From the IMG/VR virus record IMGVR_UViG_3300044949_001773, positions 1 to 64,000 of that record: a stretch of 64,000 nt of DNA. One strand, given 5' to 3'. A program made the translations under genes and the position numbers. The stretch is from a virus. Under the pieces are notes generated by a model. It was not told the DNA's origin. It was given only the letters and a program-made list of their open reading frames with translations, and ran no database searches. How positions within the stretch are numbered: the stretch's first letter is position 1; each line of letters starts with the position of its first letter. This document shows positions 23,386-54,656 of the stretch, piece by piece.

Positions 23386-23466
23386 GCCCCTGTGGTGAAA
23401 TGGTAAACACAGTTGACTCAAAATCAACCGCCTACGGGTTTGTCGGTTCAAATCCGACTGGGGGCA
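23386..23466 (+). tRNA. tRNA-Leu (CAA)
   Basis: Cloverleaf with acceptor GCCCCTG/TGGGGGC, anticodon stem GTTGA/TCAAC with loop CTCAAAA (anticodon CAA), a long variable arm (CGCCTACGGGTTTGT) and T-stem TCGGT. Decodes UUG. No encoded CCA. Confidence 0.93.
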
Positions 23467-23467
23467 C

Positions 23468-23500
23468 TTGACTATCATAGAATCTTGTTTTATAATAGTC
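23468..23500 (+). promoter_or_regulatory. Sigma-70-type promoter with dyad, abutting tRNA-Leu
   Basis: TTGACT (23468-23473), 17-bp spacer, TATAAT (23491-23496). GACTAT and ATAGTC (23470-23475, 23495-23500) form an inverted repeat across the promoter. Confidence 0.8.
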
Positions 23501-23508
23501 TTGTTCAA

Positions 23509-23596
23509 GCGAGTGAGACTTGGTAGTCAGAGAGGTCTTATAAACCTTTTCCGCCAGATTAGCGGCTTTGACCTGGTTCGAATCCAGGCACTCGTA
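23509..23596 (+). tRNA. Unusual class II tRNA with UAU anticodon
   Basis: Acceptor GCGAGTG/CACTCGT, T-arm CCTGG-TTCGAAT-CCAGG and a long variable stem (CCGC...GCGG) mark a class II tRNA (Leu/Ser/Tyr type). The anticodon stem AGGT/ACCT holds loop CTTATAA, so the anticodon is UAU (Ile AUA), not a Leu or Ser one. The D-arm is very short (GAC-TTGGTA-GTC). It is either a Leu tRNA with a changed anticodon or a decaying gene. Confidence 0.7.
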
Positions 23597-23600
23597 CCTT

Positions 23601-23673
23601 GCTCGTTTAGCCATCTGGTGAAGGTAGCGTTCTCATAAAGCGCCTCAGGAGAGTTCGATCCTCTCAACGAGCA
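23601..23673 (+). tRNA. tRNA-Met (CAU)
   Basis: Acceptor GCTCGTT/AACGAGC, anticodon loop CTCATAA (CAU), T-arm GAGAG-TTCGATC-CTCTC. CAU could also be the modified Ile2 tRNA; this cannot be settled from sequence alone. Confidence 0.9.
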
Positions 23674-23674
23674 C

Positions 23675-23707
23675 TTGACAATCTGAGATTTCTGCCTTAT
23701 GATTGTC
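23675..23707 (+). promoter_or_regulatory. Sigma-70-type promoter with dyad, abutting tRNA-Met
   Basis: TTGACA (23675-23680), 17 bp, TATGAT (23698-23703). GACAATC/GATTGTC inverted repeat at 23677-23683 and 23701-23707. Confidence 0.8.
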
Positions 23708-23715
23708 TTATAAAT

Positions 23716-23787
23716 GGTTCTGTTGCTTATTGGTTAAAGCCTACACCTTATAAGTGTAAGAAGAGAGTTCAATTCTCTCCAGAACCA
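23716..23787 (+). tRNA. tRNA-Ile (UAU)
   Basis: Acceptor GGTTCTG/CAGAACC, anticodon stem TACAC/GTGTA with loop CTTATAA (UAU), T-arm GAGAG...CTCTC. Class I; decodes the rare AUA codon. Confidence 0.88.
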
Positions 23788-23791
23788 CCTT

Positions 23792-23864
23792 GCCCGTGTA
23801 GTCCAGCGGAAGAGACAAACGACTTAAAATCGTTCCAGGGTCGGTTCGAATCCGACCACGGGTA
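23792..23864 (+). tRNA. Class I tRNA with UAA anticodon (Leu?)
   Basis: A clean 73-base cloverleaf: GCCCGTG/CACGGGT, D-stem GTC/GAC, anticodon stem AACGA/TCGTT with loop CTTAAAA (UAA), five-base variable loop, T-stem GTCGG/CCGAC, discriminator A. UAA would read the Leu codon UUA, but Leu tRNAs normally have a long variable arm. Its amino-acid identity is therefore open. Confidence 0.85.
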
Positions 23865-23865
23865 T

Positions 23866-23894
23866 TTGACAATCTTTGTCAAATATGATATAAA
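23866..23894 (+). promoter_or_regulatory. Sigma-70-type promoter abutting the UAA tRNA
   Basis: TTGACA (23866-23871), 17-bp spacer, TATAAA (23889-23894). Transcription would start near 23901, about 80 bases before tRNA-Arg. The leader between holds CAAAG/CTTTG and CCTCC/GGAGG pairings. Confidence 0.75.
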
Positions 23895-23979
23895 TTATCT
23901 TATGGGCATCAAAGGTCCAAACTTTGAGTAAGTCCTACCCCTCCTATGCCTCTCAACGATGCACAAACCTGGAGGCCTT

Positions 23980-24051
23980 GGGCTCATAGTTAAGCGGATA
24001 TAACTACCGCCTTCTAAGCGGTCGTCCCTGGTTCGATTCCAGGTGAGCCTG
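23980..24051 (+). tRNA. tRNA-Arg (UCU)
   Basis: Acceptor GGGCTCA/TGAGCCT, anticodon stem ACCGC/GCGGT with loop CTTCTAA (UCU), T-arm CCTGG-TTCGATT-CCAGG. Confidence 0.93.
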
Positions 24052-24093
24052 TTCTAACATTATGTTAGATTTTATAATTAACAAAAAATTGAT

Positions 24094-24276
24094 ATGCCTA
24101 AAAAACAAGTTGTAAACACTTCTTACGATCTTGGTTATTCTTCTAGAAATGAAAACCATGATACGATTCGTGACATTAGAATTAATTTTGAAAATCCTGA
24201 TGATGAGTTTCTCATGGAAAATTTGAACACCTGGCTTCGTGCTATTGGGGTTAATCTTGAAGTCATTCAAAAATAA
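24094..24276 (+). CDS. 60-residue conserved cyanophage protein
   Basis: MPKKQVVNTSYDLGYSSRNE start; C-terminal half NPDDEFLMENLNTWLRAIGV is the conserved part I recognise from other T4-like cyanophages. Lies inside the tRNA cluster. Function unknown. Confidence 0.7.
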   Translation: MPKKQVVNTSYDLGYSSRNENHDTIRDIRINFENPDDEFLMENLNTWLRAIGVNLEVIQK

Positions 24277-24284
24277 TATAAAAC

Positions 24285-24317
24285 TTGACAATTAAACTTA
24301 AATAGTTTATAATTGTC
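24285..24317 (+). promoter_or_regulatory. Consensus sigma-70 promoter with dyad, before tRNA-Gly
   Basis: TTGACA (24285-24290), 17 bp, TATAAT (24308-24313). GACAATT/AATTGTC inverted repeat at 24287-24293 and 24311-24317. Confidence 0.85.
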
Positions 24318-24323
24318 TTATAT

Positions 24324-24395
24324 GCGGGGTTAGTTCAGCGGTAGAACGCTATCCTTCCAAGTTAGATGTCGTCGGTTCGATTCCGATACCCCGCT
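24324..24395 (+). tRNA. tRNA-Gly (UCC)
   Basis: Acceptor GCGGGGT/ACCCCGC, loop CTTCCAA (UCC), T-arm GTCGG-TTCGATT-CCGAT. One mismatch in the anticodon stem (CTATC/GTTAG). Confidence 0.9.
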
Positions 24396-24509
24396 CTTGG
24401 AGTTTATCTCCATATATAAAAGTGATAGAGGGTAAGCCTCTGTTATATCCTTATGAGGTATATTACGCTTACTCCATCATAAACACACACAAACACACAA
24501 GGAGTAAAA

Positions 24510-24707
24510 ATGACACCTTACGAATTACGCTTTGAGATTTTTAAACAAGCATATGCCCATGCTAATGATGAATATTTTGCGAGATATAATATAGTTGATA
24601 ATCATAATAAGAATGCTGGAAGTAAATGGGAATATCCTTCATTTCCTTCTTATGAAAAGATTGAAGCACTTGCAGAGAAAATCAACAATTTTGTAAGTTC
24701 TAAGTGA
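24510..24707 (+). CDS. 65-residue conserved cyanophage protein
   Basis: MTPYELRFEIFKQAYAHAND... with a second half YPSFPSYEKIEALAEKINNF. AAGGAG 7 bp before the ATG. A frequently seen small protein of T4-like cyanophages; function unknown. Confidence 0.8.
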   Translation: MTPYELRFEIFKQAYAHANDEYFARYNIVDNHNKNAGSKWEYPSFPSYEKIEALAEKINNFVSSK

Positions 24708-24738
24708 TTTTATTGGGCGGAAACGCCCCTATTAGTAT

Positions 24739-24810
24739 TCCCCTGTAGCTCAGCGGTAGAGTCGTCGGCTGTTAACCGATTTGTCGCAAGTTCGAATCTT
24801 GCCGGGGGAG
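24739..24810 (+). tRNA. tRNA-Asn (GUU)
   Basis: Acceptor TCCCCTG/CGGGGGA, anticodon stem TCGGC/CGATT (mismatch at the inner pair) with loop TGTTAAC (GUU), T-arm GCAAG-TTCGAAT-CTTGC, discriminator G. Confidence 0.93.
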
Positions 24811-24960
24811 TTGGAAGGTCTGGAAATGTCTGGGTCTTCCATAAGAGTCGGGATCATCATATCCGACTCACTAAATCCTAAGTTTTCTTAGGTCGGGGAC
24901 TTGATCACCCCCGCTCGTTGCGGAGAGTGTCTTCCGCTGGTGATGGGCACTCATCACCTT
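24811..24960 (+). ncRNA. Candidate multi-hairpin RNA between tRNA-Asn and tRNA-Thr
   Basis: Five hairpins in 150 bases without an ORF: GGAAG/CTTCC (24813, 24836); GAGTCGG-GAT/ATCCGACTC, 9 pairs with one bulge (24845-24869); CCTAAG-TTTT-CTTAGG (24877-24892); CCGC/GCGG (24911-24923) or, instead, GCGGA/TCCGC (24920-24937); and GGTGATG/CATCACC (24939-24958). ATCACC at 24904-24909 can compete for GGTGAT, so two folds are possible. No known family recognised. Confidence 0.5.
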
Positions 24961-24962
24961 TC

Positions 24963-25035
24963 GCCCTTGTAGCTCAGTTGGTAGAGCACCGCTTTTGTAA
25001 AGCGGTTGTCGCAAGTTCAAGTCTTGTCGGGGGCT
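24963..25035 (+). tRNA. tRNA-Thr (UGU)
   Basis: Acceptor GCCCTTG/CGGGGGC, anticodon stem CCGCT/AGCGG with loop TTTGTAA (UGU), T-arm GCAAG-TTCAAGT-CTTGT. Confidence 0.93.
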
Positions 25036-25072
25036 TTTATAATGTAATAAATAAAGAAAATGATATGTCATC

Positions 25073-25330
25073 ATGGAAAATATTAAGGTAAGATGTAAGA
25101 ATTGTAATAGAGAGTTGGAAGGTCATCCTACAAAAACTGTAACTTGTGGGTGCTCAAACATGACTACAATAAGAGGGGAAAAAATAACAGCTATTGATCT
25201 TTCAAATGTTGTTATGTTGAATTCCTATAAAGAAAAAGTTAAAAAAACTTTTTTAACTAACGAAGATATTGCCTGGCAAGAAGCAAGAAGACAGCGCAAA
25301 GTTCGTAAATTGGACTTTGAAGTTCGTTGA
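25073..25330 (+). CDS. Zinc-ribbon-like small protein, 85 residues
   Basis: CKNCNRELEGH and TVTCGCSN provide four Cys near the N-terminus, compatible with a zinc ribbon. The C-terminus is basic (QEARRQRKVRKLDFEVR). An AATAAATA late-type box (25046-25053) lies 20 bp before the start. Conserved in cyanophages; possibly nucleic-acid binding. Confidence 0.75.
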   Translation: MENIKVRCKNCNRELEGHPTKTVTCGCSNMTTIRGEKITAIDLSNVVMLNSYKEKVKKTFLTNEDIAWQEARRQRKVRKLDFEVR

Positions 25331-25338
25331 TTAGAATT

Positions 25339-25421
25339 GGAAGGAGTCCGGTTGGTCGAGGACACCGCCTTGAAAGCGGCTGGGGGTAACACCTTCGCAG
25401 GTTCGATTCCTGTTCCTTCCG
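25339..25421 (+). tRNA. tRNA-Ser (UGA)
   Basis: Class II: acceptor GGAAGGA/TCCTTCC, loop CTTGAAA (UGA), long variable arm (GGGGGTAACACCTTC region), T-arm GCAGG-TTCGATT-CCTGT, discriminator G as usual for Ser. Confidence 0.94.
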
Positions 25422-28466: not shown

Positions 28467-28670
28467 TTTAAGACATGGAGAGTCTATAAAAACCCTGGTC
28501 GGAAGCGTTTCCCCTTCTTTAGTCACGGAGAGACTTTAAAAGTACTGGTGGAGTCAAATATGACCCTGTTAGGTTTCTTGCCTTTCCTTAAAAGGCAAGT
28601 GGTGCGGATGGAGATTACTCCCGCCGAGTTTCCAATTTTCTCGTAATCAAAATTGGTGGCGAGCCTGAGT
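28467..28670 (+). ncRNA. Candidate structured RNA upstream of the glycan cassette
   Basis: About 200 bases without a normal gene. Two near-repeats (GGAGAGTCTATAAAAACC and GGAGAGACTTTAAAAGTA), a 9-bp hairpin CTTGCCTTT/AAAGGCAAG (28577-28599) and an 8-bp hairpin CCAATTTT/AAAATTGG (28632-28656) flanked by CGCC/GGCG. A 28-codon ORF (28560-28646, MTLLGFLPFLKRQVV...) with GGAG in front lies across both hairpins. A terminator follows. Placement before an NDP-sugar epimerase recalls the cis-regulatory wcaG motif of cyanophages, but a match is not shown. Confidence 0.5.
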
Positions 28671-47618: not shown

Positions 47619-47674
47619 GGTAAACAAATGTTACGAAATCAACATATTTCTTAACATTTACCCTCTTCCTAACC

Positions 47675-47739
47675 GAGACCTATGGGGAGGTAAAACACAG
47701 TCTCTCATACCCACACTGGAGGGTGGTGTGGGATATAAT
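47675..47739 (+). promoter_or_regulatory. psbA leader: hairpins and TATAAT
   Basis: GAGAC/GTCTC (47675-47704) encloses ACCT/AGGT; then CCCACAC/GTGTGGG (47710-47732). TATAAT follows at 47734-47739, suitable as an early psbA -10 although no clear -35 is seen. Structured psbA leaders (PhotoRC motifs) are known in marine cyanobacteria and phages; identity not tested. Confidence 0.45.
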
Positions 47740-47784
47740 GTACTCGTTCAGTTCCCCCTGAGCATTACTTACCCTTTAACGAAA

Positions 47785-49125
47785 ATGACTGCTTCTATTG
47801 CTTCACGCCGTTCTGGCGAAAACCTCTGGGAACAATTCTGTTCCTGGATAACTTCAACTGATAACCGTCTTTATGTCGGTTGGTTCGGAGTCCTTATGAT
47901 TCCTTGTTTGCTTGCTGCAACAACATGTTTCATTATCGCATTCATCGGTGCTCCTCCTGTGGACATTGATGGCATTCGTGAACCCGTTGCTGGTTCACTT
48001 ATGTACGGAAATAACATCATCTCTGGTGCTGTTGTTCCTTCGTCCAACGCAATTGGACTGCACTTTTATCCTATCTGGGAAGCCGCCTCTCTGGATGAGT
48101 GGCTCTACAACGGTGGTCCTTTCCAACTGGTTGTGTTCCACTTCCTGATTGGTATCTATGCTTACATGGGTCGTGAGTGGGAACTTTCCTACCGCCTAGG
48201 TATGCGTCCTTGGATCTGTGTTGCTTACAGCGCACCTGTTGCTGCTGCTTCTGCTGTATTCCTGGTCTATCCTTTCGGTCAAGGTTCTTTCTCTGATGCG
48301 ATGCCTCTGGGTATTTCTGGTACGTTCAACTATATGCTTGTGTTCCAGGCAGAGCACAATATCCTGATGCACCCCTTCCATATGCTTGGAGTTGCTGGTG
48401 TGTTCGGTGGATCTCTTGCATCAGCCATGCATGGATCTCTCGTGACTTCTTCTTTGGTTCGTGAAACAACCGAAAACGAAAGTCAAAATTACGGATACAA
48501 GTTCGGTCAAGAAGAAGAGACTTATAACATCGTTGCTGCTCACGGTTATTTCGGTCGCCTTATTTTCCAATATGCTTCCTTTAATAACTCACGTTCACTG
48601 CACTTCTTCCTTGCTGCATGGCCCGTTGTAGGCATCTGGTTCACTGCTCTTGGTGTTTCTACGATGGCTTTTAATCTCAATGGTTTTAATTTCAATCAGA
48701 GCATTATGAGTTCTGAAGGTAAAGTTATTAACACTTGGGCTGATGTTCTGAACCGTGCTGGTCTCGGCATGGAAGTGATGCACGAAAGGAACGCTAGATT
48801 TGTTGGTGTTCTTGCCTAGTAATAGGCATTAGTAAAATCGGGTTAAACGGGGAAACTCTCTATGAGACAATCCCGTACCAAGTCAGAAAGGGTTTAAGTT
48901 TTCTGAAAGGTCTAACGACTAGGTGGTGAGTCCCAACAATAATCCACCCACGAATGCCCGACTCCTTAATAAACATAAGGATGAAGAGATAGTCTGAACT
49001 TACTGGCGACAGTAAGAAGTAAAGAATAAAGAGTCTTTACGGTAACATAATTGCACAATTTCCCTCTTGACCTTGCTAGCGTAGAAGCAACTCCTGTTGC
49101 TCTTACTGCTCCTACAATTGGTTAA
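47785..49125 (+). CDS. psbA: Photosystem II D1 protein, split by an intron
   Basis: Exon 1 47785-48795 (337 codons) and exon 2 49054-49125 ([20 protein letters not shown]..., stop 49123) give a 360-residue D1, the normal length. ATG at 47785 fits the family ([18 protein letters not shown]). Fully conserved quinone and chlorophyll regions, with [12 protein letters not shown] (Glu at the position usually numbered 130, as in the high-light D1 form). Without splicing translation stops at 48819 and the Mn-cluster ligands of the tail (His337, Asp342, Ala344) are lost. Keeps photosynthesis going during infection. Confidence 0.95.
48796..49053 (+). other. Group I intron in psbA
   Basis: 258 bases between exon codons for Ala336 and His337. 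5' exon ends in T and the intron ends in G, as group I introns require. Core elements: an R-like CTAACGACTAGG (48912-48923) and an S-like AAGAGATAGTCTG (48984-48996). No ORF inside. Group I introns in cyanophage psbA have been described (for example S-PM2); the exact borders here are my inference from restoring the D1 reading frame. Confidence 0.9.
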
Positions 49126-53137: not shown

Positions 53138-53464
53138 ATGGGAAAACATTATCTTTTAAACCTTTACGGTTGTTCTTTTGTTCTTTTAAACGACGAAAAA
53201 GCTTTAATAGATTTGCTTGAAAATGCAGCAATAGCTAGTGGAGCAAATGTGATTCAAACAATCTCAAAAAAGTTTGATCCTCAGGGAGTTACTGTAATTT
53301 GCTTATTGTCAGAAAGTCATATAAGCATTCATACTTGGCCTGAAGATGGAAAAGCCGCTGTAGATGTATATACCTGCGGTGATTGTAATCCAAAAATTGG
53401 ATGTGATATGATTATCCATCAACTTTACGCTCAAAATCACACTTTAAGTTATATTGAAAGGTGA
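53138..53464 (+). CDS. speD: S-adenosylmethionine decarboxylase
   Basis: Provides the aminopropyl donor for spermidine. 108 residues, bacterial SpeD type. LLSESHISIHTWPE holds the Ser that becomes the pyruvoyl group after Glu-Ser cleavage; AAVDVYTCGDCNP holds the catalytic Cys. A known cyanophage gene. Polyamines may help pack DNA. Confidence 0.95.
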   Translation: MGKHYLLNLYGCSFVLLNDEKALIDLLENAAIASGANVIQTISKKFDPQGVTVICLLSESHISIHTWPEDGKAAVDVYTCGDCNPKIGCDMIIHQLYAQNHTLSYIER

Positions 53465-53494: not shown

Positions 53495-53812
53495 ATGCTT
53501 TCTACACAATATAGACTTCGCCTTGAGGAAATTTGCGATAAAATTTCAAAAGGAGAATCTGTTGAACTAAGCGATATGATTTGGGTAGAAAAACTCGCAA
53601 AAGCAAATAGATCTGCCGCTACTATTTTGAGACAGGCAAGACGAAGAGCTTCTAATCCTAATATGCAAGAGGGTAGCCTGGATCATTTTATGAACGCCTT
53701 AGATCTTGGTGATCCGGATCCATCTAATCATAAGACTGGATTTCAAGGTCCTGATGATATTTTAGATTTCTTTACCCAAGATAAGCCGGACGATTGGAGA
53801 CAAAGAGATTAA
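53495..53812 (+). CDS. 105-residue conserved cyanophage protein
   Basis: ATG 53495 with GGAG before it. YRLRLEEICDKISKGESVEL, DMIWVEKLAKANRSAATILR, LDLGDPDPSNHKTGFQGPDD and a RDWRQRD-like end. Recurrent, function unknown. Confidence 0.8.
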   Translation: MLSTQYRLRLEEICDKISKGESVELSDMIWVEKLAKANRSAATILRQARRRASNPNMQEGSLDHFMNALDLGDPDPSNHKTGFQGPDDILDFFTQDKPDDWRQRD

Positions 53813-53838
53813 AATTGTAACAAAAGTTACAAAAGTAC

Positions 53839-53868
53839 TTGACTATATAATCTGAATGGGTCTATAGT
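53839..53868 (+). promoter_or_regulatory. Promoter of the riboswitch-peptide unit
   Basis: TTGACT (53839-53844), 18-bp spacer, TATAGT (53863-53868); transcription would begin just before the riboswitch-like element. Confidence 0.7.
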
Positions 53869-53875
53869 GACCTCA

Positions 53876-53924
53876 CGTTCATCCCACATGGGACGGAAGT
53901 AAGCCGACTCGGAACGGATCGTTC
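53876..53924 (+). ncRNA. Glutamine-riboswitch-like element (glnA/Downstream-peptide type)
   Basis: CGTTCATCCC...GGGACGGAAGTA matches the remembered consensus of the glnA and Downstream-peptide RNAs of marine cyanobacteria and their phages. P1 pairs CGTTC (53876-53880) with GAACG (53912-53916); P2 pairs TCCC/GGGA. A second CGTTC (53920-53924), five bases before the small ORF, can compete for GAACG, giving an obvious on/off switch. Confidence 0.8.
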
Positions 53925-53928
53925 ATCT

Positions 53929-54084
53929 ATGGAAACACTTTTATTGACTTGTTTGCAGGCGCAATTTATGATTGCCCGGGTAGATATGAATAAAAATATT
54001 ACTCCTAAAATTAGGAACGATATTGTTTGGGAAATTAAACAAGTTACTAAAAAAGGTTGTTTCCAAGACGCAAAAGCCGACTGA
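53929..54084 (+). CDS. Downstream peptide of the riboswitch, 51 residues
   Basis: METLLLTCLQAQFMIARVDM, then NITPKIRNDIVWEIKQVTKK, ending DAKAD. This type of peptide (xTLLLTCxQAQ...) is the small ORF that defines the Downstream-peptide riboswitch setting. Function unknown; likely tied to nitrogen status. Confidence 0.8.
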   Translation: METLLLTCLQAQFMIARVDMNKNITPKIRNDIVWEIKQVTKKGCFQDAKAD

Positions 54085-54124
54085 AGGAACGCTCTTTAAC
54101 CTAAAAAACTAAGGAGAAAACCTA

Positions 54125-54262
54125 ATGTCTAAAGTAGTATATCGCGGTGTTGAGTATGATACTCAAAAGCGTTTAGAGTATCAACATCAAATGATGCAGC
54201 AACCACAACAATACAACGAAACTTATCGTGGAGTTAAGTTTGTAAAGGAGGGACATAAGTGA
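54125..54262 (+). CDS. DUF4278-type small protein
   Basis: 45 residues with two Y-R-G motifs (VVYRGVEYDTQ and ETYRGVKF), the signature of this cyanobacterial family. AAGGAG before the start. Function unknown. Confidence 0.75.
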   Translation: MSKVVYRGVEYDTQKRLEYQHQMMQQPQQYNETYRGVKFVKEGHK

Positions 54263-54360
54263 TGAAAAAACTTAACGTCCTTCAATTAATAAAAGAGCAA
54301 AAACAAAAAGAAGACCGTCGTTATCAGGCACAACTAGCACAGTTAGTTGGGTCAAAATAA
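54262..54360 (+). CDS. 32-residue basic peptide
   Basis: MKKLNVLQLIKEQKQKEDRR, ending AQLAQLVGSK. ATG overlaps the previous TGA. Resembles small cyanobacterial peptides near such riboswitches (recollection, not checked). Confidence 0.55.
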   Translation: MKKLNVLQLIKEQKQKEDRRYQAQLAQLVGSK

Positions 54361-54443
54361 TGATAATTATTGCACAAATTACAATAGCTTCTGCTGCAAC
54401 TATTGCTTTATTGTCATTATATATTCAGTGGTTATATAAGTAA
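54360..54443 (+). CDS. 27-residue membrane peptide
   Basis: MIIIAQITIASAATIALLSL...; TAATG overlaps on both sides support coupled translation. Confidence 0.5.
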   Translation: MIIIAQITIASAATIALLSLYIQWLYK

Positions 54444-54610
54444 TGGATTACCATTACCACTGGGATGATATGGATAAGAATAGCAGAGATCCTGCTTGTT
54501 ATCAATTAACATATCGAGGATGTAAATACTGGTCTTGTTACAGAATACATTTACGAGAGTGGTTTGAACAAATTTTGGATATTGATCCAATTTATAACAA
54601 GAGGGGTTGA
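54443..54610 (+). CDS. 55-residue protein with a Y-R-G motif
   Basis: MDYHYHWDDMDKNSRDPACY then QLTYRGCKYWSCYR, again DUF4278-like, plus an amphipathic end. TAATG-coupled. The stop lies inside the following terminator. Confidence 0.55.
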   Translation: MDYHYHWDDMDKNSRDPACYQLTYRGCKYWSCYRIHLREWFEQILDIDPIYNKRG

Positions 54611-54627
54611 CGATCCCTCTTTTTTTA
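54600..54627 (+). terminator. Terminator of the peptide operon
   Basis: AGAGGG/CCCTCT stem and T7, overlapping the last codons of the preceding ORF. Confidence 0.85.
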
Positions 54628-54656
54628 TGTAAAATGAAAAAAGAAATCTATGAGTA

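Follow-up and report, generated by a model that had tools for sequence, protein, structure and literature searches.

Positions 53876-54092 of the window, a 64,000-nucleotide stretch inside a 131,809-base virus record whose source is a virus of cyanobacteria, are well supported by sequence comparison as two interlocked glutamine-I (glnA, RF01739) aptamers that share one P3 helix. The comparative evidence shows that the outer aptamer (53876-53909 with 54075-54092) joins the 5' half of the first copy to the 3' half of the second, and that the inner aptamer (53902-54082), circularly permuted and set into P3, joins the 3' half of the first copy to the 5' half of the second. We consider it somewhat better than an even bet that the locus is a cyanophage translational glutamine switch, which comprises the interlocked aptamers, a gene in the inner P2' loop and the following DUF4278-like gene under opposite control; here, we infer both the ligand binding and the direction of control. 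The features of the locus are as follows.

53839-53868, + strand: putative sigma-70-like promoter, TTGACT-18-TATAGT, by consensus match
53858-53862 and 53869-53873, + strand: inverted repeat around the -10 element, GGGTC / GACCT
53876-53880, + strand: outer P1 5' arm, CGTTC; partner 54087-54091; covariation to CGTTT/AAACG in 5 distinct loci
53882-53893, + strand: outer P2 hairpin, TCCC/GGGA, plain in the window phage
53894-53902, + strand: outer core 5' strand, CGGAAGTAA, with G22 at 53895, G23 at 53896 and the 5' half of loop E; numbering of PMC5393176
53902-53909, + strand: P3 5' strand, AGCCGACT; partner 54075-54082
53912-53924, + strand: inner P1' hairpin, GAACG-GAT-CGTTC; G53917 is position 60' and pairs with C54071
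53926-54068, + strand: inner P2' hairpin, in which TCT and GGAAACA (53926-53937) pair with TGTTTCC and AGA (54058-54068); nested ORF in its loop
53929-54084, + strand: nested ORF, 51 codons and TGA, phrog_504; start codon in the P2' 5' arm
54069-54074, + strand: inner core 5' strand, CGCAAA, with G22' at 54070 and C23' at 54071
54075-54082, + strand: P3 3' strand, AGCCGACT
54083-54092, + strand: 3' half of outer loop E (GAA), outer P1 3' arm GAACG (54087-54091) and C60 (54092)
54092-54116, + strand: expression platform, CTCTTTA (54092-54098) pairing with TAAGGAG (54110-54116); C60 is common to aptamer and platform
54125-54262, + strand: DUF4278-like mini-ORF with YRG, 45 aa; PF14105, phrog_5049
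54262-54360, 54360-54443 and 54443-54610, + strand: three overlapping mini-ORFs, the last with YRG
54599-54628, + strand: predicted intrinsic terminator, a 10-pair stem and T run, which closes the transcript

The CGTTCATCCC...GGACGGAAGTA core begins at 53876, and CGTTCA occurs at 53876 and 53920. The stretch GACGCAAAAGCCGACTGAAGGAACGC (54067-54092) includes a second GGAACG (54086-54091) and gives a second glutamine-I aptamer its 3' half, completing that aptamer around the ORF; the ORF itself is placed between CGTTCATC (53920) and this second 3' half, which its final codons overlap. A preliminary description of the locus had correctly listed the promoter (by consensus), the core letters with both CGTTC copies, the small peptide ORF at 53929, and four mini-ORFs linked by TGATG/TAATG overlaps, two of them with Y-R-G (we place the starts at 54125, 54262, 54360 and 54443, and the Y-R-G motifs in the first and fourth); its glnA-type element over a DUF4278-like mini-ORF is supported as well. 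The observation is partly confirmed, being real but half seen: it had one aptamer and then a peptide gene, where we find two interlocked aptamers.

Bare promoter-consensus matches numbered 5 against 3.8 expected in shuffles, and transcription from the putative promoter would start at about the aptamer's first bases. Inverted repeats that vary in sequence and keep their complementarity stand just 5' of the aptamer in 160 of 162 distinct relatives, where the best stem averages 6.4 and shuffled sequences give 4.9, and the repeat around the -10 element is a candidate 5' RNA hairpin or operator. For intrinsic terminators, 3 were found against 0.4 expected.

Several neighbours were also recorded. 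The speD gene (S-adenosylmethionine decarboxylase, 53138-53464) lies shortly upstream of the operon with a phrog_507 ORF between, and S-PM2 has speD upstream as well. A PhotoRC-II RNA is located at 47652-47746; a group I intron (RF00028, 63.9 bits, with permissive filters only) follows at 48786-49016 and is probably within or near psbA, since it comes about 1 kb after the PhotoRC-II RNA. A wcaG RNA (28569-28670) and an abiF RNA (23940-23976, inside a tRNA cluster at 23386-25420) were further found.

Pairing across the two aptamer copies

RF01739 matches the window at 53874-53920 with 34.3 bits, which falls 0.7 short of the required 35; E is 1.1e-5 in a search of 601 bases and 0.0012 in one of the whole window. 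This is the only such match at E <=0.001 in the 131,809-base record. About 165 bases separate the P3 strands of the window's outer aptamer. The same model spans the entire composite in the ORF-less loci L057 (46.8 bits) and L220 (42.9), and among 18 loci searched, Rfam at cut-off reported whole composites in 2 and single halves in 7. The preliminary description had named Downstream-peptide RNAs beside glnA; that family (glutamine-II, RF01704) is rejected, at 17.4 bits against the 33 needed. Rfam matches to PreQ1, RefA9 and snR107 in 53700-54300 fell below cut-off and are taken as chance.

In the bound form of glutamine-I, as given in passages of PMC5393176, G23 pairs with C60 and GAAGUAA/UGAAG forms loop E. 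In the window, the P1 helix CGUUC/GAACG that closes the three-way junction forms across the copies (53876-53880 with 54087-54091), the long-range G23-C60 pair (53896-54092) exists in the composite and in neither copy alone, and loop E is present in the outer composite only (53896-53902 with 54082-54086), being absent from the inner unit. Read as two complete aptamers in tandem, the copies show G..G and C..C, respectively, at 23/60, and loop E is split, with its 5' half in copy 1 and its 3' half in copy 2. A complete aptamer arises only when copy 1 supplies the 5' half and copy 2 the 3' half. The window's P3 contains six Watson-Crick pairs and two C.A mismatches.

Pattern scans of IMG/VR and of fetched phage genomes gave at least 105 parsed loci (99 distinct) and 7 more unparsed ones, and the census with later loci comprises at least 186 distinct composites in cyanophages and contigs. 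The scans required G or C at position 23 and left position 60 unconstrained. Outer 23-60 is Watson-Crick in all 186 distinct composites listed (137 C-G, 49 G-C), and the inner 60'-23' pair holds in 182 of them (180 G-C, 2 C-G), whereas the two 23-60 pairs of an ordinary tandem hold in 137 and 136 and fail in 49 and 50, respectively. The mean P3 duplex energy over 28 distinct strand combinations is -4.4 kcal/mol, a value reached by none of 5000 permutations; re-dealt strands average -2.8 (sd 0.33). Across 47 plain members, the composite model pairs 94.7% of cells and the local model 90.4%, and pairs changed on both sides number 15 and 10, respectively; the local model's own 23-60 pairs form in 51% and 49% of cells and its P3 pairs in 51% and 63%. 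RNAalifold without a given structure draws outer P1 and inner P1'. The free energy of the composite is below that of the local fold in 96 of 96 cases, a comparison to which we give no weight because it is partly trivial through the tight GAT loop. As counter-evidence, 23-60 is C.A in 3 of 53 divergent loci. S-PM2 and S-CREM1 carry the same element with no ORF.

Local pairing is also possible in the window itself, since its arms are identical, as they are in nearly all loci. We therefore designed a scan for changed arms, which required, after a 5' half, an inner hairpin with a base other than G at the start of its first pair and left the partner base free. This returned at least 80 loci, 62 of them distinct. 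The first pair of the inner P1' is complementary in 60 of the 62 distinct loci listed (56 C-G, 4 A-U), and the two exceptions, L548 (T/T) and L570 (C/A), have no riboswitch around them. Wherever both outer arms were found, CGTTC/GAACG was kept or had changed jointly to CGTTT/AAACG (5 loci); in four rows the outer 5' arm was read by eye, the automatic parse having taken CGTTGA inside P2, in 9 rows this arm was not found nearby, and in several the 3' side was cut or unparsed. These compensated changes establish that arms 1 and 4, and arms 2 and 3, are partners, and the local pairs become mismatches (e.g. C.C, G.G) in the 60 loci. The preliminary description had two CGTTC copies competing for one GAACG. 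There are instead four arms, each with a fixed partner. Competition is not a conserved mechanism, since in 60 of 62 loci the partners have changed jointly and pairings 1-2 and 3-4 no longer form. What survives of its view that the second CGTTC sets translation is that this arm adjoins the start of the small ORF and pairs with a GAACG. A scan for a change in the second pair of P1' gave 0 loci, which is uninformative beyond conservation.

Protein genes nested in the aptamer loops

Comparison of relatives shows that the nested ORF is a real protein gene under protein-level selection that shares sequence with the aptamer core. Among the first 99 composites listed, 48 have an ORF in the P2' loop. 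This ORF starts 4-6 bases beyond the inner CGTTC in all 48 and stops at one fixed place in 47 of them, and in the larger census the distance between core and stop is 11 or 14 bases in 83 of 86. The core GACGCAAAAGCCGAC-TGA reads DAKAD-stop (sister forms DAND/DAHD), and the C-terminal DAKAD and stop of the window's ORF are encoded by aptamer core. With at least 70% identity and the last five codons excluded, the median dN/dS was 0.19 and all 43 pairs were below 1, 2 of the original 45 having been dropped for undefined or extreme dS. The peptide matches the phrog_504 profile (E 1.9e-6, residues 6-49), has two invariant cysteines and is predicted to form a two-helix hairpin (mean pLDDT 82.7); a PDB fold search with this model gave no match at E <=0.001. 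When relatives were sought by protein only, 77 of the best 80 of 105 were nested by a strict test, and the other three were two at contig ends, nested as far as visible, and L519. A GGAG in the inner P1' loop occurs in 26 of 48 ORF-bearing composites and in 2 of 51 others, counts that ignore kinship, and is possibly the ribosome site of the nested ORF; the window has GGAT at this position. Only some of the P2' stems have the start codon fully paired.

Another ORF, mostly of about 66 codons, occupies the outer P2 in 46 of the 186 composites listed, alone or beside a P2' ORF. By outer/inner class, 77 are plain/plain, 57 plain/ORF, 25 ORF/ORF and 21 ORF/plain, and 6 are unassigned on the outer side; 100 have no P2' ORF (77 plain/plain, 21 ORF/plain and 2 with the outer side unassigned). 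P-HM2 and P-SSM3 possess both nested ORFs. The outer ORF starts in the P2 5' arm, and its stop falls either within or close to the P2 3' arm or else in loop E, at AAGUAA; its median dN/dS is 0.17 (147 pairs). Its main type is phrog_6471, to which 2 of 4 outer ORFs tested belong, and the best 80 of 510 relatives in a protein-only search, close kin of one another, are nested without exception (80/80). Nested ORFs are absent from all 118 distinct single aptamers. The phrog_504 and phrog_6471 families align in hhalign with probability 69.8 and E 4.2e-5; this weak alignment is suggestive of homology and would fit a joint duplication of aptamer and gene.

Other inserts and arrangements were seen among the scanned loci. 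In L035 and L098 the inner P1' loop is 549 bases long and contains an ORF of 182 aa with the possibly GIY-YIG-like motif YGRGYIGSR; a Pfam search of this ORF did not confirm GIY-YIG. Both ends of this ORF remain in the 44-base P1' loop of L018, which gives the impression of a mobile gene that was inserted and later lost. Five single glutamine-I aptamers (L010, L011, L040, L041 and L079) have a structured-looking P3 insert of about 70 bases sharing AAGC(A/T)AAGTAC and GAGACCGA; there, Rfam reports only the glutamine aptamer in L010, L041 and L079, and nothing in L040. L021, L039, L089, L090, L101 and L113 are true side-by-side tandem glutamine-I aptamers on phage contigs. A loose pattern matched 25 contigs of cellular assemblies, most of which look like chance. 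Six phage-like composites in cellular-labelled assemblies (L230 and L254, Prochlorococcus; L238, a Rhodospirillaceae bin; L249, Nonlabens; L250 and L252, a Euryarchaeota TMED129 bin) may be misbinned phage sequence.

Expression platform and models of control

The CTCTTTA directly after the aptamer is complementary to TAAGGAG, the Shine-Dalgarno of the 54125 gene. In the window's leader (L005), the predicted probability that this Shine-Dalgarno is free is 0.01 with the aptamer strand free and 0.32 with GAACGC occupied. Predicted accessibility rises in 28 of 29 distinct C60 leaders but in only 15 of 52 leaders of the G60 class, two composites without a recognisable Shine-Dalgarno having been left out; thus, the anti-Shine-Dalgarno platform is not general, and the G60 class must work otherwise. 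The 54125 gene matches PF14105 (DUF4278) with 18.9 bits (E 0.0019), under the cut-off of 25.3, as well as phrog_5049, and is likely the regulated gene. According to passages of PMC6316151, glutamine riboswitch aptamers in cyanobacterial genomes are found chiefly with DUF4278 genes, glutamine-I riboswitches activate on glutamine, and the glutamine synthetase inactivating factor IF17 has DUF4278 as its N-terminal part.

In the switch that we favour, high glutamine would close the outer junction and draw C60 (54092) into the G23-C60 pair. The withdrawal of C60 would weaken the CTCTTTA:TAAGGAG helix and allow translation of the DUF4278-like gene, and in the glutamine-closed fold the nested gene's start would be hidden in P1'/P2'. 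When glutamine is scarce, ribosomes would occupy the nested gene, whose translation requires that P2', P3 and loop E be open, and the site downstream would be shut. One RNA would in this way give opposite outputs for the gene inside and the gene behind, and two coupled sites would make its response steeper.

We tentatively extend this model to a two-site interlocked sensor in which glutamine and ribosomes contend for the same RNA. Its fold would shut the inner gene or genes (phrog_504 in P2', phrog_6471 in the outer P2) and open the gene behind, the two families would be ancient duplicates doubled with the aptamer, and the whole would serve as a toggle for the host nitrogen state in infection. 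The ligand contacts of glutamine-I are the C1-G59 pair, C58 and G22 (passages of PMC6698751). The inner unit keeps C1', G2', C58', G59' and G22' together with a covarying 23'-60' pair, although most of these contact letters were demanded by our DNA search patterns and their conservation partly reflects them. Among loci found by protein alone (best-80 lists), 157 of 158 testable ones have exact GAACG/CGTTC, namely 80 of 80 in the outer-ORF search and 77 of 78 testable in the nested-ORF search; the exception, L519, has the compensated AAACG/CGTTT. The inner junction may nevertheless not bind glutamine, since it is without the AGUA/GAA loop E.

The missing AGUA/GAA favours an alternative that we regard as rather unlikely, in which the outer junction is the single glutamine site, and the inner junction and nested gene are tolerated in an enlarged P3. 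Glutamine-I aptamers do accept other large P3 inserts (L010, L079), and loops even accept the 549-base ORF of L035 and L098. However, the inner counterparts of the ligand contacts and the covarying 23'-60' pair exceed what a scaffold needs.

The main rival, to which we assign a low probability, couples the two genes: the aptamer would mainly control the nested ORF, and both genes would rise and fall together. Ribosomes ending at 54082-54084 would melt CTCTTTA:TAAGGAG and switch on the downstream gene. The stop lies 7 bases before the anti-Shine-Dalgarno, inside the ribosome footprint, and its near-fixed position (83 of 86) fits such coupling, but the aptamer core also forces a fixed stop, and the 100 of 186 composites without a P2' ORF include members with similar leaders.

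Another reading, that the nested ORFs entered the hairpin loops selfishly or by chance and have no regulatory meaning, is quite improbable. The P1' ORF of L035 and L098 and the remnant in L018 do resemble a mobile gene, but phrog_504 and phrog_6471 ORFs start and stop in fixed registers, are under strong purifying selection and are almost always nested, and single aptamers carry no nested ORF (0 of 118). Two independent glutamine-I aptamers with a peptide gene inside or between them are scarcely credible, even though both halves contain CGTTC and GAACG, true tandems occur among phage loci (e.g. L021, L039, L101), Rfam often matches one half alone, and passages of PMC9481103 report 157 glutamine doublets, called pseudo-cooperative. 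As a conserved structure, an independent tandem is refuted by the 23-60, P3 and arm-change counts and has a complete loop E in neither half.

Relation to known riboswitches and meaning

Riboswitches are usually described as aptamers standing before a gene, and the tandem glycine riboswitch has two like aptamers side by side that may act together; here, two like aptamers are interlocked. With glutamine-I (RF01739; PDB 5DDP), the element has in common the P1-P2-P3 three-way junction, loop E, C1-G59, G2-C58, G22, G23-C60 and, probably, a DUF4278-type gene downstream, but its halves are exchanged, the inner aptamer is circularly permuted, and protein genes lie inside P2. The tandem glutamine riboswitches in passages of PMC9481103 likewise have two aptamer copies per leader; those stand side by side, whereas here neither copy is complete and pairing crosses between them. 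Glutamine-II (RF01704) presumably shares the ligand and has the CGUUCA...GGAACG strands and a nearby short ORF, but that fold is a pseudoknot with the peptide gene downstream rather than inside. Strands are also exchanged between two copies in the glutamine-II crystal dimers (6QN3), which, according to passages of PMC7357161, are two molecules and presumed absent in vivo, in contrast to the single, conserved molecule described here.

Some glnA RNAs occur in tandem (Weinberg 2010, passages of PMC2864571), and among glutamine riboswitches the tandem review finds 157 doublets and 4 triplets, with interlocking not mentioned in its passages (PMC9481103). The S-CREM1 annotation includes a 99-nt glnA RNA (44.0 bits, 164232-164330), which covers the whole composite, and passages of that paper offer no comment on its structure (PMC9964418). 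Methylophage Melnitz has a glutamine riboswitch near its tmRNA gene (passages of PMC9004378). An interlocked or gene-bearing glutamine riboswitch was not found in the literature searched, seen in passages and with the founding papers outside it, and we therefore class the element as a new form of the glutamine-I riboswitch.

In this form, two aptamers swap halves into one conserved structure, and some core nucleotides also serve as codons and a stop. The element would be a natural RNA toggle with opposite outputs if ligand and ribosome are mutually exclusive. Since DUF4278 is found in the glutamine synthetase inactivating factor (passages of PMC6316151), the element may also offer a handle on how cyanophages read the nitrogen status of their hosts.
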